64,000 nucleotides of DNA from a virus: the IMG/VR virus record IMGVR_UViG_3300032323_002843, positions 1-64,000 of that record, one strand, 5' to 3'. The notes below the pieces were generated by a model. It did no database searches and was not told the origin of the DNA. It saw only the letters and a program-made list of their open reading frames with translations. Positions 1 through 18,471 of the stretch are shown one piece after another. A program made the translations under genes and the position numbers. Numbering within the stretch: the stretch's first letter is position 1; each line of letters opens with the position of its first letter.

Positions 1-906
1 AGTTACACCTCCATAAGCATTTAGTGATCCACTTACTATTAAAGAACCTGTTACTAATTCTTGAGAAGAAGTAATGACTTGTACAACAAGTGTTTGTGCT
101 GTTAATGTTCCGGCTACAGTAAAGTTACCAGCATAAGATGCTGTTGCAGCGTATGAAGCTGACGTTGAACTTGATGCGTAAGAGGCGGAAACTGAGGCGC
201 TAGCATATGAAGCGGATATAGCGTTTGAAATTGAGCCTGAAAAGTATGAGGCTGTTACTGCGCTTAAAGCTAATGAAGCAGTAGCTACAGAACCTGTTGT
301 AATATCATCTATGAGTAGTGTTCCATTTTTATCTGGAAATTGGAAGCTTCTTACTGTGTTAAGGGTTAAATTACCAGCATGAAAAACAATTTGTTTATAG
401 TTGCCTCCTGTTTGTCCAAAGTTAAATCTTAAGTCGTAAATTCCACTAGCACCTATTGAAGTATACCCATCACCATAATAAAATAAAGAACCTGTAGGCT
501 GTCTGAAATTTAAACTATAGTTATTAGAACCACTACCTTCTAGAACAAGATGTCTTGTAAAAAATGTATTAGTGTTAAAGGTTTTAGCACCTTCTACTGT
601 TTGGCTACCTGAAATATATACAATTCCAGCTACATACGAAGCGGATGTTGCATTTGCTGCTACTAAAGAGTAAGAGGATGTTGTTGCATTGTTTGCGGTT
701 CCTGCATTTAAAGCATATGAGGCAGAAACGGTAGAGCCACCTGATCCACTTCCAATTTCAACAATGGATTGGATGCTGCCTACTTGTTTTTTCATGTAGG
801 CCTTACCATCATAGGTATTAAGTGCTATTTCACCTAACTCTAATGAAGAGATAGTAGGAATTTTTCCAGGAACGCTACTGCGTTTGAGTTTAATATCAAC
901 TGCCAT
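1..906 (-). CDS. Tail fibre-like protein, 3' end beyond window
   Basis: The reading frame is open from an ATG at 906 to the window edge (302 codons, no stop), so the C-terminus is missing. The N-terminus (MAVDIKLKRSSVPGKIP, then LELGEIALNTYDGKAYMKK) resembles the attachment end of many phage fibre proteins. The rest is low-complexity SASYA/TSASYA repeat followed by TLVVQVITSSQELVTGSL, nearly the same as a segment of the gene at 17341-18471. This is the fifth member of a fibre family in the window and probably a trimeric adhesin. The ATG overlaps ATAAATATG, the reverse complement of the upstream motif seen elsewhere. Confidence 0.75.
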   Translation of the reverse strand, partial: MAVDIKLKRSSVPGKIPTISSLELGEIALNTYDGKAYMKKQVGSIQSIVEIGSGSGGSTVSASYALNAGTANNATTSSYSLVAANATSASYVAGIVYISGSQTVEGAKTFNTNTFFTRHLVLEGSGSNNYSLNFRQPTGSLFYYGDGYTSIGASGIYDLRFNFGQTGGNYKQIVFHAGNLTLNTVRSFQFPDKNGTLLIDDITTGSVATASLALSAVTASYFSGSISNAISASYASASVSASYASSSTSASYAATASYAGNFTVAGTLTAQTLVVQVITSSQELVTGSLIVSGSLNAYGGVT

Positions 907-926
907 ATTTATGTTACCCTTTTAAC

Positions 927-962
927 GAGCATGTGCTCAGGTTCTGCGGCTTATGTAAGCCG
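927..962 (-). other. Two small palindromes upstream of fibre gene
   Basis: GAGCATGTGCTC (927-938) and CGGCTTATGTAAGCCG (947-962) are perfect inverted repeats with 2-base centres. They lie in the leader of the truncated fibre gene. They may be protein-binding sites or weak hairpins. Confidence 0.45.
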
Positions 963-965
963 AGA

Positions 966-973
966 ATAAATAT
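966..973 (-). promoter_or_regulatory. ATATTTAT motif, 59 nt before fibre ATG (906)
   Basis: Coding strand: CTCTATATTTATTCTCGGC. It lies after the stop of the 61-residue gene. Confidence 0.45.
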
Positions 974-987
974 AGAGATGTATTAGC

Positions 988-1173
988 TTATATATCGGCT
1001 AATGGAGCTGCTTTATATTGGCGTCCAGTTGGATCCGCTGCTTGTAGTTCAGCGGCCTTATCAGCTGCTTCCTGTTCCGTATCGTAGATATATTCTGGGT
1101 CAGTTGGGTTGATTTTAGCGACCCATATCTGGGAATTTCCTGCGATAAATTCCATTAATACTATGTATTGCAT
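988..1173 (-). CDS. Small hypothetical protein (61 aa)
   Basis: A 61-residue acidic protein without recognised motifs. It has a beta-rich start (MQYIVLMEFIAG, QIWVAKINP) and a helix DTEQEAADKAAELQA. Its ATG shares one base with the stop of the upstream GIY-YIG gene (TAATG), so the two are probably translated together. It sits between a homing endonuclease and a fibre gene and may have arrived with the endonuclease or be an assembly accessory; neither can be shown. The coupled start and clean length favour a real gene. Confidence 0.55.
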   Translation of the reverse strand: MQYIVLMEFIAGNSQIWVAKINPTDPEYIYDTEQEAADKAAELQAADPTGRQYKAAPLADI

Positions 1174-1868
1174 TATTGTTTGTTTTTACAGTTATTAAGA
1201 TGCCATCTTGCTATACTACTAGGTGTACTAACAGCATTGCAGTGAGGGCATGTTACTTTAGGCATATTTAATGCTGCCTCTCGCATTTTTTGTTTTGTTT
1301 CTTCTTTATGATGTTTTCCAAACAGAAAGTGTTTTTCTCCTATCATAGAATCACTTATTTTTCTTTTTTGTTCTTCCGTATGTTTACATCCTAAATAATT
1401 TGGCTTTCTACCTTTTAAAGCTTCACTTATTTTTCGTTTTGCTTCTTCTGATTTAGGTTTACCTTTATTAGTATACCCAAAATTTTTATTATTTTGTTTT
1501 TGCTCTTCAGACATTTTTCTACCTTTAGACCACGTATTTAATCCTTTATGGGATTCACTCATTTTTCTTCTTGTCTTCTCACTAGCTTTAAGACCTAATC
1601 TTCCATCACCACCTTCAGTTAAATTAACTAATGTGCCTTCGTTAAATGCTTTACGGCCGTACTGTTTAATTAATTTCTGTTCTATCTCACATGCTTCTTC
1701 CCAAGATATATTTTCGTAAAGCACTTCTACTTCTAAACCATACTTGTCAACAGCATATTTCCATATTGGGGATCTTCTGTCTGTAGTGTATGCTCGTTTT
1801 TTATGTCTGCCTATTCCAATATAAAATACAGTTCCATCTTCATGTAAATGTCTATATACTACTGCCAT
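1173..1868 (-). CDS. GIY-YIG homing endonuclease with NUMOD3 repeats
   Basis: The N-terminus carries the two strands of a GIY-YIG nuclease (VVYRHL at residues 3-8 and FYIGIGR near 15-21). A chain of NUMOD3-type DNA-binding modules follows, for example GRKMSEEQKQN, GKPKSEEAKRKISEALKG and GCKHTEEQKRKISDSMIG. It ends with a putative zinc knuckle (CPHC, then H and C in ARWHLNNC). This is the usual build of phage homing enzymes that cut an allele lacking the gene and spread by repair. It lies as a free-standing gene between fibre genes. Its own ATATTTAT motif is 4 nt from the ATG, so it may be expressed late. The specificity cannot be read from sequence. Confidence 0.88.
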   Translation of the reverse strand: MAVVYRHLHEDGTVFYIGIGRHKKRAYTTDRRSPIWKYAVDKYGLEVEVLYENISWEEACEIEQKLIKQYGRKAFNEGTLVNLTEGGDGRLGLKASEKTRRKMSESHKGLNTWSKGRKMSEEQKQNNKNFGYTNKGKPKSEEAKRKISEALKGRKPNYLGCKHTEEQKRKISDSMIGEKHFLFGKHHKEETKQKMREAALNMPKVTCPHCNAVSTPSSIARWHLNNCKNKQ

Positions 1869-1872
1869 GACA

Positions 1873-1914: not shown

Positions 1915-4900
1915 TTATTTATTTTTAAGTTCGTTAATTTCTGCTTTTAGTTCTTTAATTTCTTTGTTAAGTTCCTTTACAGAATTTACCAAAGCTGAAT
2001 AAATAGCGTCTTTTTCAAGTCCAAGGTATTCACCCGGTTTTACTGCATCAGGCATTACTTCTTGTACTTCTTGTGCTATGAATCCAAATTGCTTACCATT
2101 GGTTCCATCTTTCCAATCATATGAAACAGGGTTTAGTTTTAATACATCAGATAGACCATAGGTAAGTGGTATGATATTGGTTTTTAATCTACTATCTGAA
2201 GGGTTAGTATTAGTTAGGAATCCTGCATTTGAATAAACAGTTCCTGTACTTAATGCTCCAACATATACACTTCCAAATGCACCTATTCCATTTACATAGA
2301 ACTTAGCTCCTTGAGTAGTTGATGTTGCGTTTACTAATACATCTCCACCGGATGTTATGCGCATACGTTCGTTGTTAGCTGTATAAAACAGCATATTTGC
2401 CGCATTAGTTGTTGCTGAATCTCCAACTATTGTACAGTTACCTTCTCCTAATAATACTCCTTGATTTGCTCCACTAAAAAAGCCATACCCGGTAACGTGT
2501 AACTTAAAACTTGGAGATGTAGTGCCTATACCTACGTTACCACCATATCTTTGAAGTGATAAAGGCATAGCATCTGTTCCTCTATTTAATGATTGAATAA
2601 AGGATACATTATTAGATTCATCAACACCTATATTTAGTAATCTACCATTTGCTCCACTTGTTGTTTTTACTATTAATTGTGCGTAAGTATCAATACTTGA
2701 AAATGTAGTTGTTCTATTTATTTCTAATAAAGTATTTGGGGATGTAGTACCTATACCTACGTTACCGCTTGTATTAACAGTTAAAACATCTGTACTTCCA
2801 TTAAATATTCTAAATATATTACCTGTATTATATAATTGGAAATCTGTTTGACTACTTCTTGAACCTACAACAATAGAACCAGCGGCTGATGGTTCTAATC
2901 TTAATTGTCCTGCTGAGGATAGATTTCCACTAAAGTATCCAGTGCCGACAACATCTAACCTGTATGCTGGTGATGTAGTACCTATACCAACATTACCTGT
3001 ATTATAATAAGCGTTAGCTCCACTTCTAGCAAAGACGTGGGATTTAGTATTACTTAGTGTTGCTGTTACACTTGCAAAAGCAGATGTTTCAAATCCTATA
3101 GACCAAGCCTCAGTTGCCCAAGCTGAAGTTTGTCCACCGAATCCTAAAGCAACTTCATCAATGAATACTTGAGGATAAGTCCAGGAAGATGCTAATTCAC
3201 CAATATAAACTACCATTCTAGATCCATTGTATCCAAAACGAACATTAGGATTTATATCGGTTGCTGCATCTCCTTCTACATATGCAAATGTATTATACCA
3301 AGAAGAATCTGGTTGGTAATTATACCCACCAAAATGAATTGTAAATGATCTATTTGTTGAATATTCATAAACTCTAGCTTTAACATGGTGCATTGTGTTG
3401 GTTAATCCAACAGGATAAGTAATTCTAATAGCGCCTGTTACAGTTGGTGTTGTAGTACTATATACACCACCTCTAGGTTTTACTAAACGAAATGGAGTAA
3501 CATCATCATTTATTGTATAGTCAGTAGCTATATTTCCAATTACATCTAATTTATATCCTGGGCTTGTAGTGCCTACACCTACATTACCATTACCATCCAT
3601 TGTTATACCACTTCCAATAGTACCAGCACCTGTTGTTACATAAAAAGTATTTGCAGCAGCTCCTGCACCTAAATTAGCATATCCTACATATCCACCATTA
3701 GATGAGTGTCCTATGTTTATTCTTGCATTAGTAGTTGTTGATGTAGCATTAATAACATCTGTTGAACCAATTACAAAAAGTTTAGCTGATGGCGATGTAG
3801 TGCCTATACCAACGTTACCACCTGCTCTAATAACCATATCAGCAGTAGAAGCAGATACAATAGTTCCTGCTGTAGTTGATCCTGCTGATTCGGCAAAGAA
3901 AGCAATTGTATTATCTCCTAAATCATAACCATTACCACCAAGTACAATTGCAGCACCTCTCATTGATGGATGATTATTAGTTGTAACTAACTGGTGGTTA
4001 GTATTTATAGTTAAGTTAGAACCAAATGTTAAATCACCGTGGTTATTACTTGTTATAGTAGAATAAAATCCTGTAAAGCTATCTAAATAGTTTCCTATTG
4101 CAACTGGTTCACTTCCTCCTCCAATTCTAGCTGCTCCTCTTACATCTAATTTAGTTGATGGGGATGTAGTGCCTATACCAACATTACCACTACCATTAAT
4201 GATCATTTCTACATCACCACCAGCATTTCTAAAATTCATCACATCACCTGCGTTTAATTTCCTAATGCTGTTATTAGTCCAATGAGTATCAGCTATCATT
4301 CCTACAGCATATGCATTACCATTAACATGAAGAAGATAAGAAGGAGATGAAGTGCCTATACCAACACTACCTGCTCCATTAATTCTCATTCTTTCAGTAG
4401 GAGCATTAGCTGAACCAGTAGTGCTGAATGTTATTACACCTTGTGTTACACCAATAGATGCAACAGCATATAGTGCACTATCGGCTGCTGAACCATTCCA
4501 GTTAAAAGACCATATTGAAGTATCACCTGATGTAGGGACATGCCATCTATGTCTTGCATTATTCCATCCTGAAGGGGTTAATGAGACACCAAAAGTTGTT
4601 GCTGTTGCACCTGCTAATCCTAATAAAGTACCGGGGGATGTAGTACCTATACCAACATTACAACCTTGAAAGTAGCTTGCTGCTCCATTATATCCTAGCG
4701 TTAGTACATCTCTAACAGCATCATTAAATGCTAAATGATGAGTAGTATTAGATACTATATATGATTTCCATTGAACTACATCATTGTTTAAGTATATATT
4801 TGGTACTGTAGAATTTATAATTCTTATACCACTACCTCTTACATCTAATGTAACAGTTGGTGCTACAGTGCCTATACCAACATTACCATCAGTAGTAATG

Positions 4901-7900
4901 CGCATTCTTTCAGAAGCAGCCATTGAATACGTAGCACCCCCTGCAAGTATACTTCCACTTGTATGGAAAGTAATTCCATCACTATAATACATTTTAATCA
5001 TAGATGAAATCCATCCACTATTAACAACATCAACTTGGTTATTAACTGAATTGCTTGCTCTTACGTTATGACCAAGAATGGTCATTTGTCCTGAAAGGGT
5101 TTGGCTTAAAAATCCATAACTGGAGACATTTAATCCTTGCGGACCAGTAGCTAAGGATGTTGCAGAAACAACACCAATAACTTCTAATTTATTGCTTGGC
5201 GATGTAGTACCTATACCAATGTTGCCTCCAGTTAATATTGTAAATCTAGATCCAATTCCTGATTCTATTATCCCAAAAGCTCCAGCTGGTACGTTACTAG
5301 CACCTGTTGGGGATTCTATTTGCCATTGTGAAGTGGAATTAGTTAATAATATTTGGGCTCTAGAAGTACCTGTTACTCTAAAACCAGCATCTGAACCTAA
5401 AACATGTAAAGTATTTAGTGGGTTTGTGGTTCCTATACCAACCAATCCACTAGCACTAACATATAACGCATTTACTGCAGATGCTCCATCTACTTCAAAA
5501 ACACCTCCGACTGTGCCTGAAACATGGAGACGAGTTGTTGGAGTTGTAGTGCCTATACCAACGTTACCTCCACGCGCATTTAATAGTAGATTATTATACG
5601 AAGTACCATTTACCATGGCTTGAATAAACCCTACATCAGTTGCAGTATTGAATCCAAAACTTAAAAGTTTATTTGTATTGGTAGCTCCTTGTAGAGTAAA
5701 TTGACCAAATGAACCAAACTCTGCAGTTGTTGTAGCGTCTTGTACAACAGACAATCTAGCAGGAGGATTTGTAGTGCCTATACCAACATTACCACCAGCA
5801 GTGATGCGCATAGTTTCACTTGATGTACTTCCTGCTGGGTATATTGCCAGGTATGCACTGGATCCGGATGCACCAACAATAGTTGGGACTCCAGCTCCAT
5901 ATGTATTTCCCCAACTAAGATTATATGTATTTCTTATAACTATACTTCCAAAAACATCTAGTGTATCTTTTGGCGATGTAGTGCCTATACCTACGTTACC
6001 GTTTGGAAATATAACCCTACCTTGATTAGCAGCATTATTAACAGCAAGTTGCATCATAGGTAACGCATCTATTTCAATTTCTAAACTTTTACCATTAGTA
6101 AAAAATGTATTTGAATAGTTTTGATAAAAATTTGTTGCTCCATAATCAAATTTAGATAAATTTAAAAGTAAATCTTTTGTAGCTGATTGTAATCCTCTAA
6201 TTTCTAATTTACCTGTTGGACTTGTAGTACCTATACCTACGTTACCTCCATCTAATATAGTCATTGATGTATCAAACGTACCACCACCACTCCATGAACT
6301 ACCACCACCAAAAAACAAGGTACCATTTGCCGCATATATTACAGCAGGGTTATTTGCTCCACCACTGTCTTGATTACCTAATAAAATAGCTGATGCTCCT
6401 GATGTACCTGTAACAGATACGCGAGCTGAATTTGCAAATACTTCTAAATGTTCTGTAGGGGATGTAGTACCTATACCTACGTTACCAAGTGCGGTAATTG
6501 TCATTCTAGTACTTTGTGTAGTAGTACCTGAAGCAGTTCTAAGTTTTATTTCTCCATTGTTTCCTGAAAATATATTTGTACTGAAATTTCCACTATCGTA
6601 TTGTGTCATATTAATACCATAGAAATCTCCTGTACTTGAATATAAATGAAAAGATTTTCCTGTAACATTCCCAAAATCTAAAGCAACTACAGGACTTGTA
6701 GTTCCAATCCCCACATTCCCCCCACTTGTTATGCGCATACGTTCGGCATTGTTAGTGTAGAACTGCATAGCTAAAGCTGAAACCGTGTATATGTAAGGAC
6801 CAATATTATTAGTACCAAAGAATGAAGTTCCCGTTGTGTTTTGAGCAATAAAATAAGCATCTGCTGAACTATCTGTATTTTGTACTCTTATTGCATTTGC
6901 TCCTGCTTTAACTACATCTAATAAATGCGCAGGACTTGTAGTGCCTATACCAACATTACCTCCATCAAAATATGAAGATCCAGTACTTTGAAGTCTAAAT
7001 CCTATAGCATTTGAAAGACCACTTGGTTTATAACCAATAACTGTTCCTCCACCTCCACTATCATCTCTAGATAATACTAAGACTCTATTTTGATCATTAT
7101 TAGTATTAATTTTACTAATAATAACACCATTACCATTAGTAGCACCAATAGCAACATCACCTCCCCAATCATTAGTTAACGTACCTACAGTTAATAGATT
7201 ACCTGATGTGCCTCCTATTTGTAGTTTGCCTATTGGAGATGTAGTGCCTATACCAACATTAGCGGCAAAATAGGCTAAATTACTTTTAAAATAAGCCATA
7301 TTAGTACCATTACTATAAAAGTACATAATATCACTATCATCATATCCTCTTATATATGTGCCATTAGAATAGCTATAAGCTCCCCAAAATATAGATCCAC
7401 CATCTGTTAATTGTACATCACCGGATCCTTGTACAAATAATGATACTCCTGAACCGTTGGATACTCCGTTATTAACATAAAGATTTCCTGATATATGGAG
7501 TTTGTAGGAGGGTGATGTAGTGCCTATACCAACATTACCACCATTAAAGATAGACGCTCCTGACGAGCGTATAGCTATTGTAGTACTTCCTGCTGCTGTA
7601 CTAGCATATAAATCAGCATCTATTCCACCAGCAGCATAAGCATGTATATTACCAGCAACGTGGAATTTTTCATTTGGTGATGTAGTGCCTATACCAACAT
7701 TTCCCGAAGCATTTATGACATATCTATAAGTAGTTGCAGTTCTATCATAAAAATAAAATACACCATCATTTCCACCTATAAAATCATATTCTCTACCTGA
7801 ACCTCCTGTTGATTTGAATTTAATTCTAGCTTCAGAATCAATAGTATAAATTGATCCTCTTACATCTAATTTTTCTAATGGGGATGTAGTACCTATACCA

Positions 7901-8736
7901 ACATTACCACTAGTGTTTATAATCATTGTTTGAGTAGTACCTCTATAAAATGCTAAGTTACCTGTACTCCAAGTGTTTACTTCTGTTTGTCCTGAAGAAA
8001 CACTCATACCTCCTATAGAACTACCATCATCATAAACTTTAAATTTAACATTGCTACCTGCTGAGTTGCTAAATGTACCTCCTAAACTTAATGTTTCGGG
8101 AGTTGCAGTTGAGACAGATGCAAGGGTACCAATTTGAAGTCTAGAAACTGGTAATGTGGTGCCTATACCAACCAATCCACTTGCACTAACATATAATGCA
8201 TTTACAGCACCTGCTCCATCTACTTCAAAGACGCCGCCTGTGGTGCCTGAGACGTGGAGGCGTACTGTTGGTACTGTTGTACCTATACCTACGTTGCCTG
8301 ATGGATATGTAATAACTAATCTAGGAATAGTTCCTGCTTCTAATATTTGAAAATCATCATTAACAGATTGTAAATTGTAATAATAATTTGTAGCACTTTG
8401 TAATCTAATATATCTATTAGCGGTTCCTTGTAACATTATATTACCAGCCACATTCAAAGCTTCAACGGATGATCCCCCATTTACATTTACAGTACTGCTA
8501 AAAGCAGCACCTATACCATTTAATGATCCAGTTATACCTACACTACCAGTAAACTGATGTGTGTTTGAGGGTATACTACCAAATTTGGTAGATCCTGTAA
8601 TCCACGAAGTGGATGACGTTATAGTTTGAGCTACTAACGTTGTAGCTGTTATTGTACCTGTTACTGTTAAACTACCAGTAATAATACTGTTGTTTTGGGC
8701 TATTAGCCCGTTTCTAGCTATAAATTCGTATGGCAT
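1915..8736 (-). CDS. Giant tail fibre with 24 GNVGIGTTSP repeats and C-terminal S74 chaperone
   Basis: This 2273-residue protein starts with MPYEFIARNGLIAQN and a TGSLTVTGTITATTLVAQT module. It then carries 24 copies of a GNVGIGTTSPxxKLxVxG motif, each separated by 40-130 variable residues. It ends with an intramolecular chaperone of the endosialidase/peptidase S74 type: NPSDSRLKTNI, then FGFIAQEVQEVMPDAV and a coiled coil. The Ser-Lys pair in SDSRLK (Ser about 2180) marks the expected self-cleavage site, so the last 94 residues should be released after trimer folding. The repeats probably form a long beta-structured trimeric shaft with inserted receptor-binding lobes. The TATTTATT motif follows the upstream stop directly. 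Confidence 0.9.
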   Translation of the reverse strand: MPYEFIARNGLIAQNNSIITGSLTVTGTITATTLVAQTITSSTSWITGSTKFGSIPSNTHQFTGSVGITGSLNGIGAAFSSTVNVNGGSSVEALNVAGNIMLQGTANRYIRLQSATNYYYNLQSVNDDFQILEAGTIPRLVITYPSGNVGIGTTVPTVRLHVSGTTGGVFEVDGAGAVNALYVSASGLVGIGTTLPVSRLQIGTLASVSTATPETLSLGGTFSNSAGSNVKFKVYDDGSSIGGMSVSSGQTEVNTWSTGNLAFYRGTTQTMIINTSGNVGIGTTSPLEKLDVRGSIYTIDSEARIKFKSTGGSGREYDFIGGNDGVFYFYDRTATTYRYVINASGNVGIGTTSPNEKFHVAGNIHAYAAGGIDADLYASTAAGSTTIAIRSSGASIFNGGNVGIGTTSPSYKLHISGNLYVNNGVSNGSGVSLFVQGSGDVQLTDGGSIFWGAYSYSNGTYIRGYDDSDIMYFYSNGTNMAYFKSNLAYFAANVGIGTTSPIGKLQIGGTSGNLLTVGTLTNDWGGDVAIGATNGNGVIISKINTNNDQNRVLVLSRDDSGGGGTVIGYKPSGLSNAIGFRLQSTGSSYFDGGNVGIGTTSPAHLLDVVKAGANAIRVQNTDSSADAYFIAQNTTGTSFFGTNNIGPYIYTVSALAMQFYTNNAERMRITSGGNVGIGTTSPVVALDFGNVTGKSFHLYSSTGDFYGINMTQYDSGNFSTNIFSGNNGEIKLRTASGTTTQSTRMTITALGNVGIGTTSPTEHLEVFANSARVSVTGTSGASAILLGNQDSGGANNPAVIYAANGTLFFGGGSSWSGGGTFDTSMTILDGGNVGIGTTSPTGKLEIRGLQSATKDLLLNLSKFDYGATNFYQNYSNTFFTNGKSLEIEIDALPMMQLAVNNAANQGRVIFPNGNVGIGTTSPKDTLDVFGSIVIRNTYNLSWGNTYGAGVPTIVGASGSSAYLAIYPAGSTSSETMRITAGGNVGIGTTNPPARLSVVQDATTTAEFGSFGQFTLQGATNTNKLLSFGFNTATDVGFIQAMVNGTSYNNLLLNARGGNVGIGTTTPTTRLHVSGTVGGVFEVDGASAVNALYVSASGLVGIGTTNPLNTLHVLGSDAGFRVTGTSRAQILLTNSTSQWQIESPTGASNVPAGAFGIIESGIGSRFTILTGGNIGIGTTSPSNKLEVIGVVSATSLATGPQGLNVSSYGFLSQTLSGQMTILGHNVRASNSVNNQVDVVNSGWISSMIKMYYSDGITFHTSGSILAGGATYSMAASERMRITTDGNVGIGTVAPTVTLDVRGSGIRIINSTVPNIYLNNDVVQWKSYIVSNTTHHLAFNDAVRDVLTLGYNGAASYFQGCNVGIGTTSPGTLLGLAGATATTFGVSLTPSGWNNARHRWHVPTSGDTSIWSFNWNGSAADSALYAVASIGVTQGVITFSTTGSANAPTERMRINGAGSVGIGTSSPSYLLHVNGNAYAVGMIADTHWTNNSIRKLNAGDVMNFRNAGGDVEMIINGSGNVGIGTTSPSTKLDVRGAARIGGGSEPVAIGNYLDSFTGFYSTITSNNHGDLTFGSNLTINTNHQLVTTNNHPSMRGAAIVLGGNGYDLGDNTIAFFAESAGSTTAGTIVSASTADMVIRAGGNVGIGTTSPSAKLFVIGSTDVINATSTTTNARINIGHSSNGGYVGYANLGAGAAANTFYVTTGAGTIGSGITMDGNGNVGVGTTSPGYKLDVIGNIATDYTINDDVTPFRLVKPRGGVYSTTTPTVTGAIRITYPVGLTNTMHHVKARVYEYSTNRSFTIHFGGYNYQPDSSWYNTFAYVEGDAATDINPNVRFGYNGSRMVVYIGELASSWTYPQVFIDEVALGFGGQTSAWATEAWSIGFETSAFASVTATLSNTKSHVFARSGANAYYNTGNVGIGTTSPAYRLDVVGTGYFSGNLSSAGQLRLEPSAAGSIVVGSRSSQTDFQLYNTGNIFRIFNGSTDVLTVNTSGNVGIGTTSPNTLLEINRTTTFSSIDTYAQLIVKTTSGANGRLLNIGVDESNNVSFIQSLNRGTDAMPLSLQRYGGNVGIGTTSPSFKLHVTGYGFFSGANQGVLLGEGNCTIVGDSATTNAANMLFYTANNERMRITSGGDVLVNATSTTQGAKFYVNGIGAFGSVYVGALSTGTVYSNAGFLTNTNPSDSRLKTNIIPLTYGLSDVLKLNPVSYDWKDGTNGKQFGFIAQEVQEVMPDAVKPGEYLGLEKDAIYSALVNSVKELNKEIKELKAEINELKNK
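5436..5570 (-). repeat. Internal duplication, copy 1 (second copy at 8163-8296)
   Basis: Both copies encode GGVFEVDGA(G/S)AVNALYVSAS followed by GLVGIGTT. They are about 135 bp long and clearly related at DNA level, though lightly diverged, inside one fibre gene. Confidence 0.75.
8163..8296 (-). repeat. Internal duplication, copy 2
   Basis: Partner of the segment at 5436-5570. Differences are mainly at third codon positions, for example AAAACACCTCC against AAGACGCCGCC. Confidence 0.75.
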
Positions 8737-8787: not shown

Positions 8788-11700
8788 TAGACTGTGCGGT
8801 AAGTTGCCTTAATAGCCCATCCAGGAGCGGAAACTGATTGCACTAATGCATTAGCACCACTTAATGCAACACTCATTGTTAATGCAGCTGCAGTTGAACC
8901 AATGTCTGGGGAGCTGTATTCAGTGTACTGAACATTTCCACTTCTCCAGTTACCGATTAATGTTCCTGCGCGTTGGTTTGATCCACTGAAAGCAACGAAA
9001 TCGAAGAATACACCGTTGTATGATGATGTTGGGATTGTTGCTAGTGTTGTAGTGCCTGATACTGAGGAGCTGTAGGAATTATAGTTGGCGTTTAGGAGTT
9101 GAAAGTCGCCTTCTACGTCTAGTTTGGCGATTGGTGTTGTTGTGCCTATACCTACATTACCATTATTGGTAATACGCATGCGTTCAGCATTCCCACCTGC
9201 TGCAAAAATCAAATCTGATTCTGATCTTACGCCAAAGGTATTAATCCCACCACCACTAACTATACCATTCCCATTCCCTATATATCCAACTACTGTTGAT
9301 GTATTAACTTGATATGTTGTGTAAAAGGTAGATGCATCTGATGTTCTAATAATAGCAGCTTGTACGCCACCTAATACATCTAATCTTGCTTGTGGAGATG
9401 TAGTACCTATACCAACATTACCACCAGAGGTGATACGCATACGTTCAGTAGCGTTAGTATGAAATGTAACTCCTCCTCCTGAGGCTGCATACATTTCAAA
9501 TAAACTATTAGTATTATCCCACCATATTCCTCCTTTAGTAGCTCCAGAACTATTGTGATCAAAAGTTATTTGAGTGTACTGCTGGCCAGTATTGTTTAAA
9601 TATAATTGATTTCCATTTCCTGCTGTAACTCCTATACCATTAGAGCCAACAACTGTTAATTTATAGTTTGGTGATGTAGTACCTATACCAACATTACCAT
9701 CAGCATTAATAACTAATTCATAGCGAGAATCTGTTTGGTTTTGAATACCAAACCCACCATTACTTACTCCTATTAGTTGGCTTGTAAGAAGGTATGTTTT
9801 AGAACCAATACCAGCTGATGCCATTTTTATTGAGGTAGTGCCTGAAGATTGATATAAATCTAAAGTAGCACTTGGAGATGTAGTGCCTATACCAACACTA
9901 CCTCCAGAGGTGATACGCATACGTTCGGAGCCATTAACCCAAAAACGCATAAAATCAGCACTATTATCATAAGTAATTCTACCTATAACCTTGCTATCAG
10001 TATCCCCGAATAATATATTTGCTTCATTATTTGTATCCCCAACAATTGATATTCCACCACCAGATAGGGTTCTTACTTCTAATGCATAAGCAGGAACTGT
10101 AGTACCTATACCTAATCCTGTAGAGGTTAGGCGCATTCTTTCTGAGCCTGATGCAAAGAAAAACATCCTTGCATCACCCATATAAATGGACTCGTTAGAA
10201 CCTAAACTTGCTCCATTAAATATACCTGAATAATTTGAATCAGAGTATGTTGTTAATTTTGTGGCAGCACTACCAAAACGACCTGTACCATTAACATCAA
10301 GTGTTGTTGCTGGGGATGTAGTACCTATACCAACATTACCACCAGATGTGATGCGGAGGCGTTCGGTGTTGTTAGTTTGGAGTGCTAATGGATGATTAGT
10401 TGATGTTCCAAAATAACCTACTCCACCACCATTAATAATTTCAGTGTTTGTTGTTCCATCGAAAGAACTTATATATCCATTAACTTGGAATGTTCTTGTT
10501 GGAGATGTAGTGCCTATACCAATACTTCCGCTTCTACCAGATATTATTCCACCGCCGCTACCTAATTTAATAGAGGCTACTCCTTGATCTTGTTGACCAT
10601 AGATACCAATAGTGTTTGCTACGTTTATATCCCACAATTCAGCATCATCACCACCTCTAAAGTACATTGCACCATTTGCATTAGCATAAACGGCTCCTGT
10701 TGCTCTTATATCTCCAGTTACATCTAATTTATAGGCAGGGGAGATAGATCCTATACCAACATTAGTTCCATTATCAAAAATAGATCCTGTTGTTAATGAA
10801 GTTGATGAAGCCCATCTAGCTATGTAGTTTGTAGAGCCACCAGATACACTTCCTCCACCACTTCCAGCAACTGTGATTACATCACCACTAGAGTTAACTG
10901 CTAAGTAAGCAGTTGCTGTACCAGCAAATGATGCTGTAGAGGTGTATGCTGGAAGGAAGAATTGTCTTGTATGTAAATTGAATTGAGCTACTAATGCATC
11001 TGATGCTGTATTAGTACCTCTTAAAATTCTAAAATATGGATTAGCATCATTTTGAAATACATCAAGCATTGATGCTGATGTGTACGATGTGCCTGCTTGG
11101 AAGAATATTTGTCCTCCTTCTGTTGTACTTTTAGGACCTAAAAATAAATTACCTTCTGAAGATACTGATGTAGCACCTATAGATACAGTTCCATTGACGT
11201 GGAGAGTAGTTGCTGGAGATGTGGTGCCAATACCAACACTACCAGAAGGTGTTATTTGATAAGCATAACTACCATCTGTGTTGTTATATAATCCAAAATT
11301 TCCATTATTTAAAGAATATAAATGCCAATCTTTACCTGTTGTTGATGTTGTATTATTTATTCTAATACTAGAAAGTAAACCAGTACCTGTTGATCTAATA
11401 GAACCAACTACATCTAAAGCTACAGATGGAGAAGTAGTGCCTATACCAACACTTCCTGCGTTTACATCAAGGATAATATCTTTACCAGATAACATATTTC
11501 TTATAATAAGATCTCCTTGAACACCTCCTGATACTATTTCGCTTCCACCTTCATATCCTATATATCCACTTTCAATATTATTACCATCAAATCTAACTGC
11601 TGCCATTCTATTAGCAGCGTTAGATGATAATCTAACAAGGCTTCTATTGTTAGTATCATATCCAATATCTAATTTAAATCCTGGATTTGTAGTACCTATA

Positions 11701-14700
11701 CCAACATTACCATCATTCTTAATTCTTATAGCCTCAGTGGTATTATTTGTTAAGAATTGAACATCACTATTTTCATAGTTTTGAAATCTTAAAACATTAC
11801 TATTATATCCTATTCTTAATCCATCTGTAGCTGTTGCTCCTGTTACTGAGTCTGTAATTCTGATATATCCAAGACCATCTGAAGAGCCATGAACATGAAG
11901 TACATTAGCTGGAGTTGTAGTGCCTATACCAACATTGCCATTACTTCCACTAATTAGCATTCTAATAGATCCACTAGTTTCAAAAGCAAGATCTTGAACG
12001 TCATTAGTACCTAATAATGCTTGAGCACCAAAACTATTTCCTCCTTGAATATAAACGTTTGTTGCTGTTGGAGCGAATGACGCTGATACTGCGTTTGTAG
12101 CGAACGAAGCACTAACAGCAGTTGATGCAAACGAAGCTGAAGTAGCATTATCTGCTCTTGAGGCGGTTCCTAATAAAGAACCAGTAATTCCAGTTCCTAC
12201 TACGTTTAATGATCCTGTTATACTAACACTACCAGTAAACTGGTGAGTATTGCTCATTAAACTACCGAATCTAGTTGATCCAGTTACAAAGTCAGTAGAC
12301 GATGTAATTGTTTGAGCAACAATTGTTTGAGCCGTTAAAGTGCCTCTAACGGTAAAGTTATCAGCGCTTGATGCTGTAAATGATGTGTTTGCTTGAGTTG
12401 CAAATGATGCTGAAATAGCATTTGTTGCGAACGAAGCACTTACTGCTGTTGTTGCAAATGAAGCAGATACTGCTGTAGATGAGAACGATGCTGATGTAGC
12501 ATTATCCGCTCTTGAAGCCGTTCCTAGTAAAGAACCAGTGAATGAAGTTGCTGTTGTACTTCCGCTTATGTTAAGTGAACCTGTTACTGTGTGAGTATCG
12601 GTGATTATGCTACCGATATTAACACCAGTTGGTGTTACTTCGAATTCACGAGCACTACCTGTTACTACAGTTAGGGAGCCTGTGATTTGTGTGTTGCCAC
12701 TAAATCTTGCAGTACCATTTACGTCAAACCTAAAACCTGCGTTAGTTTGACTATTTATAGCTACGTTACCATTATTAAAAATATTTAATCTTGGTGTATA
12801 TACTTGACTATTACTATTTGAACCAAAAACCAATGATAAAGTATCAACGTCTTTATCCCATATCATTCCTAAATCATATTGAAAACTATCTTGTGCAAAT
12901 AAATAAGCTGGTTTTGCTCCGGCAACGTTTGCAGTTCCTATAACTATTCTACTTACGTTACCATTTCTTTGTATTGCTCCTGCTGCATTTGTAGCTATAG
13001 CAAAATTATTAGAACCAAAAGTAATTGCATCATGAGTAAATCCAAACCTACTAGCATTACTTGAATTTATATAAGCATTTGCAACAGGTCCTACTCTTAA
13101 AGCAGCATTAAATACCCCCGTAAACGAACCAGTATTAAATGTAGGGTTAATATCTAATCCTACTAATACATCATTGTTTGCTGATGCTGTTAAAGCTGTG
13201 TTTATTAACTGACCCCTTGCTATTGCGCTTGATGCAGTTTCTGAGCCACCTAATGTTAATTTAGTTGCAGTACCTAATGTGGTTGTTCCTATTGCTATAT
13301 CGCCTTCAAAATAAGACCTATTACCTGATTGAGCATATATATCCCAATTACCACTAACACTGGTTTCTGCAGCATTATTAAATAATATACCGACATTAGC
13401 TACGCTACCTGCCGTTAAATTAGCTATTCTTAAAGCAATTTGTCTACTTACTGCACCACTACCTCCCTTAAATACATCTCTATAATCATAACCATTAAAA
13501 TTTGATATTGTTCCTGTACCTGTTACTGCACTTCCAACAGAATAAGCATTTGCTGTTGATGTTGTATTAGCACTAACATTTACTGCTGAGTTAAATCCTG
13601 TCATAGTTACAGCAGTAGATGGATTGTTTATGTCTGATTGTATACCGTTAACATTACCTGTATTTGTTGATGAAACAGTTGCAATGCTACGAATACCATA
13701 CATCTGACCCGAACTACTATTTACAGTATTAGAATTTACTATCAAGCTAGTATCACCATTTACAGCAGGTGCAGCATTTATTGTTGTAACCCCCTGTACT
13801 CTTGCACTACCACTTACATCTAACCTAAAAGCACTAGATCCAGTAATTCCAATTCCAACGTTACCAAAAATGGTATGGTTAGAACCAGTTACTAATAAGC
13901 TACCAGTAAATGTCTGAGTATTAGCTAAACTATTACCAAATATATTAGATCCACTAGAATAAACAGTGCTTGAAGTTATTGTTTGAGCAATAATTGTTTG
14001 AGCAGTTAAAGTGCCTCTAACAGTAAAGTTATCGGCTGAAGATGCTGTTTGTGCTGTAGTTGTAAGTGAAGCAGTAGCAGCATAAGAAGCACTTGTTGCT
14101 GTTGCTGCATTTCCACTAATAGAAGCACTAATAAATGATTTATTTTCCCATTTAGCGGCAGTTGTATCATAAACTAATGCTTGTCCGCTTAGAGGACCTG
14201 ATATTAATACATCAGATAAGCCTGCTAAAGTTGTTGTTACTACTGATCCTCCACCACCTGATCCTCCTACTTGTCTAAATAAACCTCCAGGTTGGATATT
14301 GAATGTAGCATTATTAGTAAAATCAGCATCATATCTTGCAACAATAGCTCCTAAATAAATTGCATTTGCTGCAGTGTTTGGTGCTTCAACAAACGGTTCA
14401 TAAGGTATGTTTGATGTTGCATCTGTTTGTGTTGCATACACAGCATTACCGTAATAAACAACTATTGCTTTTGCTACTGAATTTGGAAAATAAAATACAC
14501 GTTGAATCGACCATCTGTTTTGGAAAATACCTGTTGGTACAGGTGTTAATACACCGTTGTTTGAATATTGTGATGGATCGATTGTTGTGTAACCAACCCC
14601 TCCATTTGTATCATATACCCAAGTAGAGCCTGATTGTCTGTATCTGAATATTTTAGATACATTAGTACCATTATCAGTGGCGTAGGATGGATTATTTGGA

Positions 14701-15821
14701 TCTACAGGATAGTTAGAACCAGGTGAATAAGCAGTACCGCTTGCTACTATTAAACTACCTGTTGAAGATCCACTAGGTGCTAAGGTATATCCTGATAATT
14801 TTAAAGGTCCAAATGCTCTATTAAATATATTTTGTTGTTGTTCAAAACCATATGCTACAGAAGGTTGTGTTTTAACACCGTTAATTGTAGATCCGTTTTG
14901 AAACAATACAACACCTATATTAATTTCTGTATCAAACTGTCCAGCAGCATATGGTGTACCTTGTTGGTAAATATTACCGGTCGAATCAATAGATACAAAG
15001 GCTTGTTGGTAGGATGCCGTAAGTGGTGCAATACTAGCTGATAAATTACCCCAGTTTAAATATTGAATAGTGGGGTATGGATTATCAGTTAAACTAGCGT
15101 TTAAATTTACAATAATACCACTACCACTACTAACTTGATATGTAGTAGATCCAGTAACAGCTGTAATTAAACCTCCATTTAATAAACCAGTATATAAGTT
15201 ACCTTCTAACCAACGTAAACGAGTTGTATTGGTGTATCCTTTACTATTTTGAGAGAAATATAAGTCATTTGTAGATCCACTTACAAAAATGTAAGAAGCA
15301 GATACTGAAGTATCTATATTTGTTGTTACAGGATCAAATCTATGGTATCCTGTTTGTCTAATATCACCAAATATTTGTACTGATGCTGTAGTAGCTGCTT
15401 GAGATCCTGAAATTATAATGCTACCAGATAATGTTGTATTACCAGTTAATGTATTGTTTCCTACTTGAGTAGTAGAACCACTTACTAATAATGAACCTGT
15501 AATTGTAGTTGATGAATTACGGAAGTTTGTTGTGCCAAATATATTAGTAGATCCACTAATATCAACACTGCCACTTAGAATAGTATTTCCTCTTAATGTG
15601 TTTGAACCACTAGTAAATAAGCTTCCAGTTACTGTTTGAGTACCTATAAATGTATTTGAACCAGTAGTAGCAAATGTACTACTGTCTTTACCATCTAATA
15701 AATCTGCATTATTAGAATAGCTAGAGGTTCCAAATAAAGAACCAGTTACACCATTAGTAACATTAAGAGAACTTAGGCTGGCGTCAGAGCCAGATACGAT
15801 GACTTTTTTCCAAGATGGCAT
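8787..15821 (-). CDS. Giant tail fibre with GVGIGTTSP repeats, no S74 domain
   Basis: A 2344-residue fibre that begins MPSWKKVIVSGSDASL, close to the start of the gene at 16201-17301 (MATWKKVIVSGSSAEL), which suggests a common attachment domain. Residues about 1-1150 carry TGSL, SASFA and TLTAQTIVAQTITSST modules with a non-repetitive stretch near 250-520. The C-terminal half has about twelve GNVGIGTTSP units. The end (VFFDFVAFSGSNQRAGTLIGN to AIKATYRTV) is a different, S74-free tip seen once in the window. It may bind a different receptor from its neighbour, or fold without a cleaved chaperone. Confidence 0.88.
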   Translation of the reverse strand: MPSWKKVIVSGSDASLSSLNVTNGVTGSLFGTSSYSNNADLLDGKDSSTFATTGSNTFIGTQTVTGSLFTSGSNTLRGNTILSGSVDISGSTNIFGTTNFRNSSTTITGSLLVSGSTTQVGNNTLTGNTTLSGSIIISGSQAATTASVQIFGDIRQTGYHRFDPVTTNIDTSVSASYIFVSGSTNDLYFSQNSKGYTNTTRLRWLEGNLYTGLLNGGLITAVTGSTTYQVSSGSGIIVNLNASLTDNPYPTIQYLNWGNLSASIAPLTASYQQAFVSIDSTGNIYQQGTPYAAGQFDTEINIGVVLFQNGSTINGVKTQPSVAYGFEQQQNIFNRAFGPLKLSGYTLAPSGSSTGSLIVASGTAYSPGSNYPVDPNNPSYATDNGTNVSKIFRYRQSGSTWVYDTNGGVGYTTIDPSQYSNNGVLTPVPTGIFQNRWSIQRVFYFPNSVAKAIVVYYGNAVYATQTDATSNIPYEPFVEAPNTAANAIYLGAIVARYDADFTNNATFNIQPGGLFRQVGGSGGGGSVVTTTLAGLSDVLISGPLSGQALVYDTTAAKWENKSFISASISGNAATATSASYAATASLTTTAQTASSADNFTVRGTLTAQTIIAQTITSSTVYSSGSNIFGNSLANTQTFTGSLLVTGSNHTIFGNVGIGITGSSAFRLDVSGSARVQGVTTINAAPAVNGDTSLIVNSNTVNSSSGQMYGIRSIATVSSTNTGNVNGIQSDINNPSTAVTMTGFNSAVNVSANTTSTANAYSVGSAVTGTGTISNFNGYDYRDVFKGGSGAVSRQIALRIANLTAGSVANVGILFNNAAETSVSGNWDIYAQSGNRSYFEGDIAIGTTTLGTATKLTLGGSETASSAIARGQLINTALTASANNDVLVGLDINPTFNTGSFTGVFNAALRVGPVANAYINSSNASRFGFTHDAITFGSNNFAIATNAAGAIQRNGNVSRIVIGTANVAGAKPAYLFAQDSFQYDLGMIWDKDVDTLSLVFGSNSNSQVYTPRLNIFNNGNVAINSQTNAGFRFDVNGTARFSGNTQITGSLTVVTGSAREFEVTPTGVNIGSIITDTHTVTGSLNISGSTTATSFTGSLLGTASRADNATSASFSSTAVSASFATTAVSASFATNAISASFATQANTSFTASSADNFTVRGTLTAQTIVAQTITSSTDFVTGSTRFGSLMSNTHQFTGSVSITGSLNVVGTGITGSLLGTASRADNATSASFASTAVSASFATNAVSASFAPTATNVYIQGGNSFGAQALLGTNDVQDLAFETSGSIRMLISGSNGNVGIGTTTPANVLHVHGSSDGLGYIRITDSVTGATATDGLRIGYNSNVLRFQNYENSDVQFLTNNTTEAIRIKNDGNVGIGTTNPGFKLDIGYDTNNRSLVRLSSNAANRMAAVRFDGNNIESGYIGYEGGSEIVSGGVQGDLIIRNMLSGKDIILDVNAGSVGIGTTSPSVALDVVGSIRSTGTGLLSSIRINNTTSTTGKDWHLYSLNNGNFGLYNNTDGSYAYQITPSGSVGIGTTSPATTLHVNGTVSIGATSVSSEGNLFLGPKSTTEGGQIFFQAGTSYTSASMLDVFQNDANPYFRILRGTNTASDALVAQFNLHTRQFFLPAYTSTASFAGTATAYLAVNSSGDVITVAGSGGGSVSGGSTNYIARWASSTSLTTGSIFDNGTNVGIGSISPAYKLDVTGDIRATGAVYANANGAMYFRGGDDAELWDINVANTIGIYGQQDQGVASIKLGSGGGIISGRSGSIGIGTTSPTRTFQVNGYISSFDGTTNTEIINGGGVGYFGTSTNHPLALQTNNTERLRITSGGNVGIGTTSPATTLDVNGTGRFGSAATKLTTYSDSNYSGIFNGASLGSNESIYMGDARMFFFASGSERMRLTSTGLGIGTTVPAYALEVRTLSGGGISIVGDTNNEANILFGDTDSKVIGRITYDNSADFMRFWVNGSERMRITSGGSVGIGTTSPSATLDLYQSSGTTSIKMASAGIGSKTYLLTSQLIGVSNGGFGIQNQTDSRYELVINADGNVGIGTTSPNYKLTVVGSNGIGVTAGNGNQLYLNNTGQQYTQITFDHNSSGATKGGIWWDNTNSLFEMYAASGGGVTFHTNATERMRITSGGNVGIGTTSPQARLDVLGGVQAAIIRTSDASTFYTTYQVNTSTVVGYIGNGNGIVSGGGINTFGVRSESDLIFAAGGNAERMRITNNGNVGIGTTTPIAKLDVEGDFQLLNANYNSYSSSVSGTTTLATIPTSSYNGVFFDFVAFSGSNQRAGTLIGNWRSGNVQYTEYSSPDIGSTAAALTMSVALSGANALVQSVSAPGWAIKATYRTV
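9130..11930 (-). repeat. About 12 copies of GNVGIGTTSP-coding repeat in second giant fibre
   Basis: The same DNA unit as in the neighbouring gene. Three more degenerate units (for example GNVGIGITGSS and GDIAIGTTTL) lie further towards the N-terminus. Confidence 0.88.
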
Positions 15822-15925: not shown

Positions 15926-16183
15926 TTATTGCTTGCCTGATTTCTTTAAGTACAGGTTCTGTAGCTTTATAATCATATTATAAAACATTTCTACCTGATG
16001 CCCTTTCAAATCAGCATTACCTAATACCTTAAGTAAAAACTCTAATTCAGATAATTCCAACTCATTGTTTGATTGAGGTTGGGGTGTTGGTTGGGGTGTT
16101 GGTTGGGGTTGTGGAATAAATTCTGTTTGTTCTTGTTGAACAGGATTTTGTCCTACTACTGTGTTTTTTGAAACAAATGCCAT
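15926..16183 (-). CDS. Small Gln/Pro-rich protein in fibre locus
   Basis: An 85-residue protein starting MAFVSKNTVVGQNPV. A linker of QPQPTPQPTPQPQ follows, then a helical end (LSELEFLLKVLGNADLKGHQVEMFYNMIIKLQNLY). I choose the ATG at 16183 over a GTG at 16204, because the GTG lies inside the preceding gene's stop region and adds only a short lysine-rich stretch. I do not recognise the family. A flexible linker plus a helical pair between fibre genes suggests a fibre assembly or hinge component, but this is inference. Confidence 0.6.
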   Translation of the reverse strand: MAFVSKNTVVGQNPVQQEQTEFIPQPQPTPQPTPQPQSNNELELSELEFLLKVLGNADLKGHQVEMFYNMIIKLQNLYLKKSGKQ

Positions 16184-16200
16184 AACTTTTTTAAAATTTA

Positions 16201-17301
16201 TCACGAGTAAATATAAATATCACCACCGTTTGTTAACCACATATTACCAGTTCCGTTAGTGCCTCCCCAAGTTGGAGCAGCAGATGGAGCAGATCCCTGA
16301 TTGATTTTAGCAGATACAACATATTCGTCAGCTGTTACTGATGTTGATGTACCTGCAACATCATACGCCATTGCCCATCTTCCATAGGTACCAGCTGATC
16401 CTGCTTCAATGAAGAATGCAGAGCCTACACCAGATGCATTGTATTGAGCAATGATACCAGAGTCTTGTAATGTATTAGATCCACTATTAATTAAAATAAA
16501 CTGATCTTTAACGTATAGGTTTGTTGAGTTAATAAATGATGCAGTACCGTTAACTGTTAAGTCACCTTGTACTATTAAATTATTATTAAAGGTTGAATTT
16601 CCTGTTACTTGTAAACCACCAGCTTGAATTACAGAACCAGTAGCGATAGTTACTTGATTAGCATCTTCACTTATAAAGCTATTTGCTAAACCTGTACCTG
16701 TCCATTTTGTATGGTAACCAGAAGTTAAAGCAGCAGCACCTGAAATTCCTAATGTTACTGCAACTGAACCATTATATGATGATACGCTACCAGATAAACC
16801 AGAAACAAAGGATAATGCTTGTCCTAAAGCACCAATAAATGAACCACTAAATGAGCCTGTTAAGCTTGAATTAGCACCTGTTAATTGAATTGAAGTAGCA
16901 CCTGTGATTGTAGTGCCATTATCAGTTAAACTAGAATCAACAAATTTACCAGCACTAGAATCCCATTTAGTAACAATATTGTTAGCTAATTGAGCAGCAC
17001 CAGAAACAGCAACGGTTGCGGTTGTAGAACCACTATAAAGGAAAGGAACAACACCTGTACCTTGTGTTAAAGCAGGTAATTCAGCAACACCTTTAAAAGA
17101 TCCACTGAAGGAACCAGTCATTGTTACACCAGTAGCACCAGTAGTTGCTACTATATTTCCTGTACCATTAATTGGGGTAGTTGATAAGTTCGAAACTGAA
17201 CCACCACCGATTACTACTGAACCTGAGGTAAGGTTATCTACTTTTAATGCGGCTAGTTCTGCACTACTACCTGATACTATGACTTTTTTCCAAGTTGCCA
17301 T
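16201..17301 (-). CDS. Tail fibre-like protein (366 aa)
   Basis: It begins MATWKKVIVSGSSAELAALKV, matching the N-terminus of the 2344-residue fibre. The middle holds repeated GSFSGSF, ALSFVSGLSGSVSSYNGSV and SGAAxLxxxYHTKW segments. The end (LYVKDQFILINSGSNTLQDSGI, then a Gly-rich tip ending WLTNGGDIYIYS) resembles short phage fibre or collar proteins. It has no GNVGIGTTSP copies and no S74 chaperone. It is probably a shorter fibre or adaptor that uses the same docking domain as its large neighbour. Its last codons contain an ATATTTAT motif used by the next gene. Confidence 0.75.
   Translation of the reverse strand: MATWKKVIVSGSSAELAALKVDNLTSGSVVIGGGSVSNLSTTPINGTGNIVATTGATGVTMTGSFSGSFKGVAELPALTQGTGVVPFLYSGSTTATVAVSGAAQLANNIVTKWDSSAGKFVDSSLTDNGTTITGATSIQLTGANSSLTGSFSGSFIGALGQALSFVSGLSGSVSSYNGSVAVTLGISGAAALTSGYHTKWTGTGLANSFISEDANQVTIATGSVIQAGGLQVTGNSTFNNNLIVQGDLTVNGTASFINSTNLYVKDQFILINSGSNTLQDSGIIAQYNASGVGSAFFIEAGSAGTYGRWAMAYDVAGTSTSVTADEYVVSAKINQGSAPSAAPTWGGTNGTGNMWLTNGGDIYIYS
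16213..16220 (-). promoter_or_regulatory. ATATTTAT motif, 29 nt before ATG at 16183
   Basis: It lies inside the last codons of the upstream fibre gene (DIYIYS) and so is partly constrained by coding. Confidence 0.35.
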
Positions 17302-17329
17302 TTGCTGAGTTTGTTAGAGTTGTCTAATA

Positions 17330-17337
17330 ATAAATAT
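17330..17337 (-). promoter_or_regulatory. ATATTTAT motif, 28 nt before ATG at 17301
   Basis: Coding strand: AAATAATATTTATTATTAG, 3 nt after the upstream stop. Confidence 0.5.
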
Positions 17338-17340
17338 TAT

Positions 17341-18471
17341 TTAATCTAAACCCACGTACATGTTTGTAGAGGTAAACCAAATACCTCCATTCGGTGCTAT
17401 GCCTGTTGGGTTTGATGATTGGGTTGCAAACTGTACAATGCTCTGCGAAACAGTCAATACAGGTTGCTGTGTTGTAAAATTTTTAATTATAAATAAATTA
17501 CTATGTAACTCAGTATTTCCACTACTAGATACGTTAAAGTATGTGGTGCTACCTGATTTTATTAAAAATAAATTTGTTGGGTTGGTTTGGTTTTCAATAA
17601 TTAAACTACTAGTAAAACTATTCAAACCAGTAAATGAAGCTGTACCAACAAACAATAATGTGTCTGCGTTTGATATAAACCCACTGCTTGTAGTTGAATT
17701 TAAACTTAACGAACCTGATATGATTACAGATTGTGAAAGTGGATTAACGTACGATGCAGTTAAAGTATAAGAAGCACTAGTTGAAGAACTAGCATATGAT
17801 GCGGATGTTGCTAATAATGTATAAGATGAACTAATAGCCCAGCTTGATGTGCCTTGTAAACTACCAGTTACACCACCATAAGCATTTAGTGATCCACTTA
17901 CTATTAAAGAACCAGTAACTAATTCTTGAGATGAAGTGATTATTTGCACTACTAAAGTAGTGGCTGTAATAGTATCTCTTACATTAAGTGAACCTGAAAT
18001 TGAAGCACTAGTATTAACTAGAAACCCATATGAACCAACAGAAGCTGTATAACTTCCACTTGCTATTTGGGTTAAATTTAAATCAACAAATGAACTACTT
18101 AAATTTTCAAATGATCCAGATAAAATAGAAATACTAGAACTATTGTTAGTAATTCTGGTATCAAACGAAGCACTATCTTGTCTGTAGCTACTACTTAAAA
18201 TTGCTAAGCTCCCACTTGTAGAGGTAATTCTACTATCAAATGAAGCACTAGCAGATACAAAAGTTGATGTTAAAGTATAATTAGGAGCAAGTGAAGCAGT
18301 TGCTGCAAAAGATGAACTTACAGCTTGTGAGGCAGTACCTAATAAACTACCTGTAAATCCATTAGTTGATGTAATAGAGCCAGTAATGGTCTGAGATCCA
18401 CTAACAAGCAATGAGCCTGTTATTGTTAGACCTCTACTAAAATCACTCTGTTTGACACCAAATTTAGCCAT
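17341..18471 (-). CDS. Tail fibre-like protein (376 aa), SASY-repeat type
   Basis: Starts MAKFGVKQSDFSRGLTITGSL and is made of TGSLLVSGS, SASFDSRIT and SASYASSSTSASY repeats around a module TLVVQIITSSQELVTGSLIV, shared with the truncated gene at 1-906. The C-terminus (NPTGIAPNGGIWFTSTNMYVGLD) is a small distinct tip. Repeats of this kind form trimeric beta structures in phage fibres. No S74 domain is present. It begins 2 nt after the stop of the preceding structural gene, at the head of the fibre locus. Confidence 0.72.
   Translation of the reverse strand: MAKFGVKQSDFSRGLTITGSLLVSGSQTITGSITSTNGFTGSLLGTASQAVSSSFAATASLAPNYTLTSTFVSASASFDSRITSTSGSLAILSSSYRQDSASFDTRITNNSSSISILSGSFENLSSSFVDLNLTQIASGSYTASVGSYGFLVNTSASISGSLNVRDTITATTLVVQIITSSQELVTGSLIVSGSLNAYGGVTGSLQGTSSWAISSSYTLLATSASYASSSTSASYTLTASYVNPLSQSVIISGSLSLNSTTSSGFISNADTLLFVGTASFTGLNSFTSSLIIENQTNPTNLFLIKSGSTTYFNVSSSGNTELHSNLFIIKNFTTQQPVLTVSQSIVQFATQSSNPTGIAPNGGIWFTSTNMYVGLD

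Follow-up and report, generated by a model that had tools for sequence, protein, structure and literature searches.

That phage fibres are mosaics is already well known: domain shuffling in tail fibres is ongoing, even between phages of 97% average nucleotide identity (Smug et al., 2023; PMC10684548), and the T2/T6-type adhesin gp38 alternates conserved Gly-rich motifs, five in number, with hypervariable segments (PMC10844046). The mosaic adhesive trimeric (MAT) fibres of Bdellovibrio bacteriovorus, for their part, carry the capping-loop motif V-G-G/N-phi-X-X-P-X-X-X-L on a trimeric beta-helix, some members ending in S74, and include chimeric fibres with exchanged ends (PMC10769870). Here we analysed bases 1–64000 (the window) of an 87,908-base viral contig (IMG/VR record IMGVR_UViG_3300032323_002843), in which a variable fibre region of about 18 kb extends from a conserved structural gene to the contig end and contains five fibre genes (F1 to F5) along with a homing-endonuclease gene. 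We consider, with good confidence, that this region is a modular fibre locus with recombinational exchange of cargo domains at recurring joints: its structure is mosaic, exchange and rearrangement have been recent, breakpoints are enriched at the joints, and one type of joint, the core of the GNVGIGTTSP repeat, is homogeneous in its DNA.

The locus shares domain shuffling with the receptor-binding proteins (RBPs) of Smug et al., but unlike those cases possesses several large adjacent fibre genes, recurring joints, and a codon homogeneity limited to the cores. F2 resembles gp38, as the latter is described, in a like alternation, though with 22 cores situated 40–260 residues apart. With the MAT fibres the likeness comes from a sequence match: the GNVGIGTTSP repeats of F2 are homologous to Bdellovibrio Bd2133 (PDB 8ond, E 9e-12, aa 243-418; also 8ojn). 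Whereas the MAT fibres are cellular, with a signal peptide, some 1,000 amino acids (aa), and an N-terminal domain of about 130 aa, the window has virion genes of up to 2,344 aa with phage anchors; and F2, which begins with a phage-type EFIARNG anchor and whose likeness rests on the capping-loop repeats, would not be placed in the MAT family. The nearest cultured relatives by terminase are Flavobacterium phage immuto (53%) and Microcystis phage Mel-JY01 (50%). In immuto the genes run capsid, PhoH, structural and fibre genes, and tail sheath, which position of the fibre genes is that of the window locus, although the fibre genes of both phages are different from those of the window and shorter.

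The structural gene at 18474–19733 had homologues in 35 of 40 related records, where differing fibre sets adjoined it, and the anchors LKRSxVPGK, WKKVIVSGS, and EFxARNG recurred at the beginning of many of the relatives' fibre genes; sheath-like genes came after the fibre block in those relatives that were covered far enough. The block is a variable insert within a conserved frame, between the head/structural and the tail-sheath genes. Exchange was seen directly in two relatives, G043 and G048. Their DNA agrees to 97.0% along the 8.5 kb that precede the fibre block and to 97.5% along the 15.5 kb that follow it, but the approximately 14 kb of the block itself differ throughout, with big in-gene insertions and a moved gene. 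Genes sharing both ends measured 1458 versus 1885 aa and 1319 versus 1702 aa, the shared pieces were 75–97% identical, and a 680-bp piece was present in gene 15 of one phage and in gene 10 of the other; at the junctions, the additional domains sat between Ala/Ser/Tyr-rich linkers. Stable fibre genes among related phages were found only in co-isolated phages, as equal gene lengths, or in 99.5% identical contigs (G006 and G011, over 19 kb), and even the latter were distinguished by a 54-bp indel, located in a fibre gene with many repeats.

Past the structural gene, the minus-strand order in the window is F5, F4, a 92-aa open reading frame (ORF), F3, F2, the homing endonuclease, and F1, with the following features:

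1..906, minus strand: F1 fibre gene, 302 aa as read, LKRSSVPGK-type N-terminal anchor (PHROG tail fiber, 1.6e-13); cut by the contig end within the ITSSQELVTGSL module, that is, inside a repeat shared with F5, so that 302 aa is not the full length
11..48 (F1) and 17876..17913 (F5), minus strand: 38-bp exact DNA repeat
1173..1868, minus strand: free-standing GIY-YIG/NUMOD3 homing endonuclease between F1 and F2 (Pfam NUMOD3, 3.7e-24; PHROG homing endonuclease, 1.8e-27)
1915..8736, minus strand: F2 fibre, 2273 aa, with the EFIARNG anchor, 22 GIGT cores, and a C-terminal S74 chaperone
2038..2199, minus strand: Peptidase_S74 intramolecular chaperone domain of F2, aa 2180-2233 (Pfam PF13884, 3.1e-18)
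3022..3525 (limits approximate), minus strand: F2 insert domain of about 160 aa, carried by other viruses with or without GIGT cores
5769..5994, minus strand: F2 core-to-core unit, 77% nucleotide (nt) identity to a unit of the relative G036
7240..7542, minus strand: F2 core-to-core unit, aa 399-499, 80% nt identity to a unit of the distant phage G042
8155..8299, minus strand: F2 core-to-core unit, aa 146-194, 82% nt identity to 5425-5569 (aa 1056-1104), also in F2
8787..15821, minus strand: F3 fibre, 2344 aa, with a WKKVIVSGS anchor, a cargo module, two ITSS stubs, and nine GIGT cores
14067..15488, minus strand: cargo module of F3, aa 112-585; 43 viral contigs carry it, with differing anchors
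12201..12332 and about 13872-14003 (F3), and about 8515-8646 (F2), minus strand: ITSS stub joints
15926..16204 (approximately), minus strand: 92-aa ORF with Pro-Gln repeats between F3 and F4, with a homologue in G018
16201..17301, minus strand: F4 fibre, 366 aa, WKKVIVSGS anchor, distant match to an immuto 'structural protein'
17341..18471, minus strand: F5 fibre, 376 aa, C-terminal part 50% identical to G036_6, whose N-terminal anchor differs
18474..19733, minus strand: conserved structural gene, the edge marker of the variable block in the relatives

The 1.4-kb cargo module of F3 occurred in those 43 contigs at 50–86% aa identity, beginning anywhere from residue 33 to residue 1753 of the complete genes, with anchors and ends that varied. 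Its DNA was 86.6% identical to that of G041, the nearest relative by capsid, as opposed to 75% for the backbone; and over 16 contigs the identities of capsid and module were uncorrelated (Spearman 0.25, p 0.36), with 85% capsids accompanying a 70% module and 62% capsids an 82% one. The F2 insert, in turn, was flanked by GIGT cores in L237, and fibre scaffolds of quite another make held it in L238, L240, and L244, so that, as in RBP domain mosaicism, the same domain is found in otherwise unrelated fibre contexts. An earlier note on this DNA, made from the sequence alone, had proposed the gain and swapping of parts by recombination, which proposal the G043/G048 blocks, the 43-contig module, and the independence of that module from capsid identity bear out. 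AlphaFold models of the monomers were poor (predicted local distance difference test score of 47.5 for the F3 cargo and 62 for the F2 insert), as is expected when trimeric fibres are folded as monomers; a Foldseek search with them gave no match below E 0.001, nor did a PDB profile search with the F3 cargo alignment give any. F2, ending in its Peptidase_S74 domain, falls among the S74-terminated phage tail fibres, with putative self-cleavage and trimerisation.

Within the window, BLAST with low-complexity masking and composition correction connected F2 with F3 (E 4e-23) and F1 with F5 (E 1e-10), while F4 gave no significant match to the other fibres past its short N-terminal anchor. The fibres are connected pairwise through overlapping sets of modules, full-length paralogy not being the pattern; the description of five paralogous fibres in the earlier note accordingly does not hold along their whole length, although the long fibre ORFs that it reported, two of them above 2,200 residues, are indeed there. 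The motifs that it listed likewise recur: the WKKVIVSGSxAxL start in F4 and F3, TLVVQ(V/I)ITSSQELVTGSL in F1 and F5, where the 38-bp exact repeat is included, the AQT/ATT..Q.ITSS stub twice in F3 and once in F2, and the GNVGIGTT cores, whose count varied with the pattern from 31 to 33, exclusively in F2 and F3. These motifs recur in several genes as that note stated, but they are anchors and joints rather than the exchangeable units themselves, the cargo lying in between. An exact search of viral contigs with 32 bp of the repeat common to F1 and F5 gave no match. The endonuclease gene, the 92-aa ORF, and the running of F1 off the contig were not among the features that the note had listed.

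Tracts of 80% identity or more had 89 internal ends, and of these 51% were within 10 residues of a joint motif, compared to 27% of random points (p 2e-6). Anchors and the ITSS stub are conserved as protein only, their codons agreeing no more than expected, unlike the codons inside the cargo module, and their candidacy as DNA-level seeds is thus unsupported. In the 31 window cores, by contrast, the GIGTT codons were strongly skewed to GGT ATA GGC/GGT ACT ACA (binomial p 6e-7 to 8e-13 per position), which skew ended within a few codons: Leu at +13, though 97% conserved, Val at +15, and Gly at +17 shared no codons. Since the duplication of whole units would leave core and tail codons both alike, something must act on the core alone. 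Codon preference or codon-pair context was rejected as the cause, because other genes favour ATT over ATA for Ile and GGC is a rare codon; a universal DNA signal was also rejected, because the codon versions vary between viruses. With a threshold of p<0.01 and the tail codons as the comparison, we tested 20 viral loci and 14 cellular contigs: cores were homogenised in 13 of the viral loci, that of the isolate Synechococcus phage S-CRES1 (L298) included, and tails in none.

The codons of the cores also differ in what they share with other phages. The backbone places G042 far from the window (37% for the 18474–19733 gene, which gene groups with G043, as does the sheath), and the core codons of the window and G042 have a cross identity of 0.78, equal to the values within each phage, with the same GGC/GGT polymorphism; the figure for G041, the nearest by capsid, is 0.53. 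Of the 31 window inserts, 25 lacked a detectable homologue in G042 and a single one had a strong homologue (79% aa), that one being the core-to-core tract at F2 aa 399-499 (80% nt). Core-to-core tracts likewise join F2 to G036 and F2 to itself, and among all arrays 5 of 15 tracts were bounded by cores on both sides, with 40% of the ends inside a core versus 9% at random. Within the core, codon 1 was linked with codon 2 (p 0.005), but no linkage held between codons 2 and 5 (p 0.43), as core-internal crossovers would give, though the numbers are small. We put forward, tentatively and with considerable doubt, that the GIGTT core DNA may be a recombination joint with lineage-specific codon dialects, so that phages sharing a dialect might constitute an exchange pool across species, in which the core DNA, and not backbone relatedness, would predict the trading of units. 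The exchange might instead be real and the core homogeneity be the product of short-tract gene conversion or of DNA-level selection in the arrays, a possibility that we take seriously while giving it somewhat less than an even chance: the homogeneity spans only about five codons, cellular arrays exhibit it as well, and just those 5 tracts run exactly from core to core, but the dialect is common to distant phages with mostly different inserts, core-to-core tracts are found between phages, and core codons 2 and 5 are unlinked.

In the mechanism that we propose for exchange at joints, each fibre consists of a short conserved N-terminal anchor, cargo domains, and a variable end (e.g., the S74 chaperone), the cargo being separated by Ala/Ser/Tyr-rich linkers, ITSS stubs, and GNVGIGTTSP capping-loop cores. 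Co-infecting phages would recombine via matching stretches using their own RecA/UvsX-like pathway, with the cores possibly serving as short homology seeds. The exchange we take to be homologous recombination, by which cargo is gained, lost, and moved from gene to gene and from one phage lineage to another, the breakpoints falling at joints more often than at random; these joints, being in frame and structurally tolerant, may allow the splicing of unrelated cargo, whose domains might bind varying host surfaces. Generic UvsX-type recombination is the likely route, and a RecA-family match was found in 10 of the 12 records searched. Certain results nevertheless weigh against this interpretation. 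A RecA-family gene was not found on the incomplete contig of the window; the conservation of the joints may itself partly draw the tract ends towards them; and the anchors and ITSS stubs lack DNA-level homogeneity, which means that seeding by DNA cannot hold for all joints. Furthermore, some viral loci are without core homogeneity, and 5 of the 14 cellular contigs do have it (their tails none), so that it is not a phage-only property and is no proof of phage crossovers. Every close relative, finally, is a metagenome contig.

That last circumstance, together with the ending of the window's contig inside a near-identical repeat, might suggest that the mosaic is an artefact of chimeric assembly; but the same gene arrangements appear in contigs from different samples (for instance, the 2357-aa gene of L254-L257 and the 1458-aa gene of L247-L249), and the longest exact repeat inside the window's fibre block measures 38 bp, so that we give that explanation almost no credence. 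A purely vertical history, with tandem duplications inside the genes, rapid divergence, and no exchange between lineages, would accommodate the duplicates within F2 (aa 146-194 and 1056-1104) and the falling of the G006/G011 difference in a repeat-rich gene, yet is highly improbable in the face of an F3 cargo that is closer than the backbone while in a different gene context and whose identity does not follow that of the capsid, of the displaced piece and the several in-gene indels that set G043 apart from G048, and of core codons shared where tail codons are not. The presence of the GIY-YIG/NUMOD3 gene within the locus might also point to dedicated diversification—a diversity-generating retroelement, a DNA invertase, or a resident homing endonuclease cutting the joints—which we regard as very unlikely: no reverse transcriptase (RVT_1) was found in the record or in 12 relatives (those records being partly incomplete), and the locus is not classed as a retroelement target; the window contains no long inverted repeats; and reading the gene starts, without a profile search, revealed no comparable endonuclease in the fibre blocks of G042, G043, and G048, the phages that rearrange or share the core dialect. 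The earlier note had spoken of a system that swaps parts, of which wording the exchange stands, while no dedicated machinery was found, its place being taken by the usual recombination of phages, working on a modular design.

With respect to the virus itself, the structural module of a T4-like myovirus is present (PHROG capsid, 7e-72; portal, 4e-59; terminase large subunit, 1e-51), and the capsid of immuto is annotated as Gp23. We take the region to be the hypervariable locus of tail-fibre (adhesin) genes in such a myovirus, whose host would probably be among the Bacteroidota. To such a host points a 747-aa outer-membrane receptor-like protein encoded by the phage (51313–53556, minus strand), with OMP_b-brl_3 (5e-25) and TonB-dependent receptor Plug (1.4e-7) domains and a possible role in superinfection exclusion or uptake; a 78% identical copy, split over two frames, is present in the 182.8-kb relative G011 (153972–156117), and distant copies occur in the 634-kb phage LR745206 and in faecal phage contigs. 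Also on the minus strand are a zeta-toxin/polynucleotide-kinase-like P-loop protein (49284–50090; Pfam Zeta_toxin, 2.1e-13) and a 457-aa virion-like protein (58465–59838) with long poly-Thr linkers (TGT repeat array at 58702–58955), similar linkers being carried by fibre-block genes of G036.

As to the borders of the block, the C-terminal domain of the 18474–19733 protein (about aa 310-419) has, in G009, G034, G037, and G015, a gene of its own alongside, a recurrent domain duplication, and the matches to its homologues in G024 and G025 (in-frame TAG) and in G028 (three TAA) read through stops. Outside the fibre genes, the 193 bp at 1009–1201, which cover the endonuclease gene's 3' end and the bases past it, are 78% identical to G016 (L106, 17213–17402). 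The fibre blocks of G010, G034, G043, G048, and G063 contain 3–5 adjacent small genes with the common end motif xQNYNAxKxRFxL, which genes resemble LamG/lectin-type adhesins and whose positions also shift.

A search of one open library yielded no literature on tail fibres with the GNVGIGT motif, nor did we meet there a lineage-specific codon homogeneity limited to the approximately five codons of GIGTT in combination with a multi-gene exchange locus. Although phage fibre mosaicism is known, the in-frame joining of unrelated fibre parts can seldom be observed; in this locus, a candidate joint measuring some 15–18 bp recurs more than 30 times and is recognisable by codon choice alone, which joint, if it is truly one, would predict the partners with which adhesin parts are exchanged. 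The relatives of this virus, in turn, offer a large natural inventory of fibre domains that can be swapped, drawn from environmental T4-like phages.

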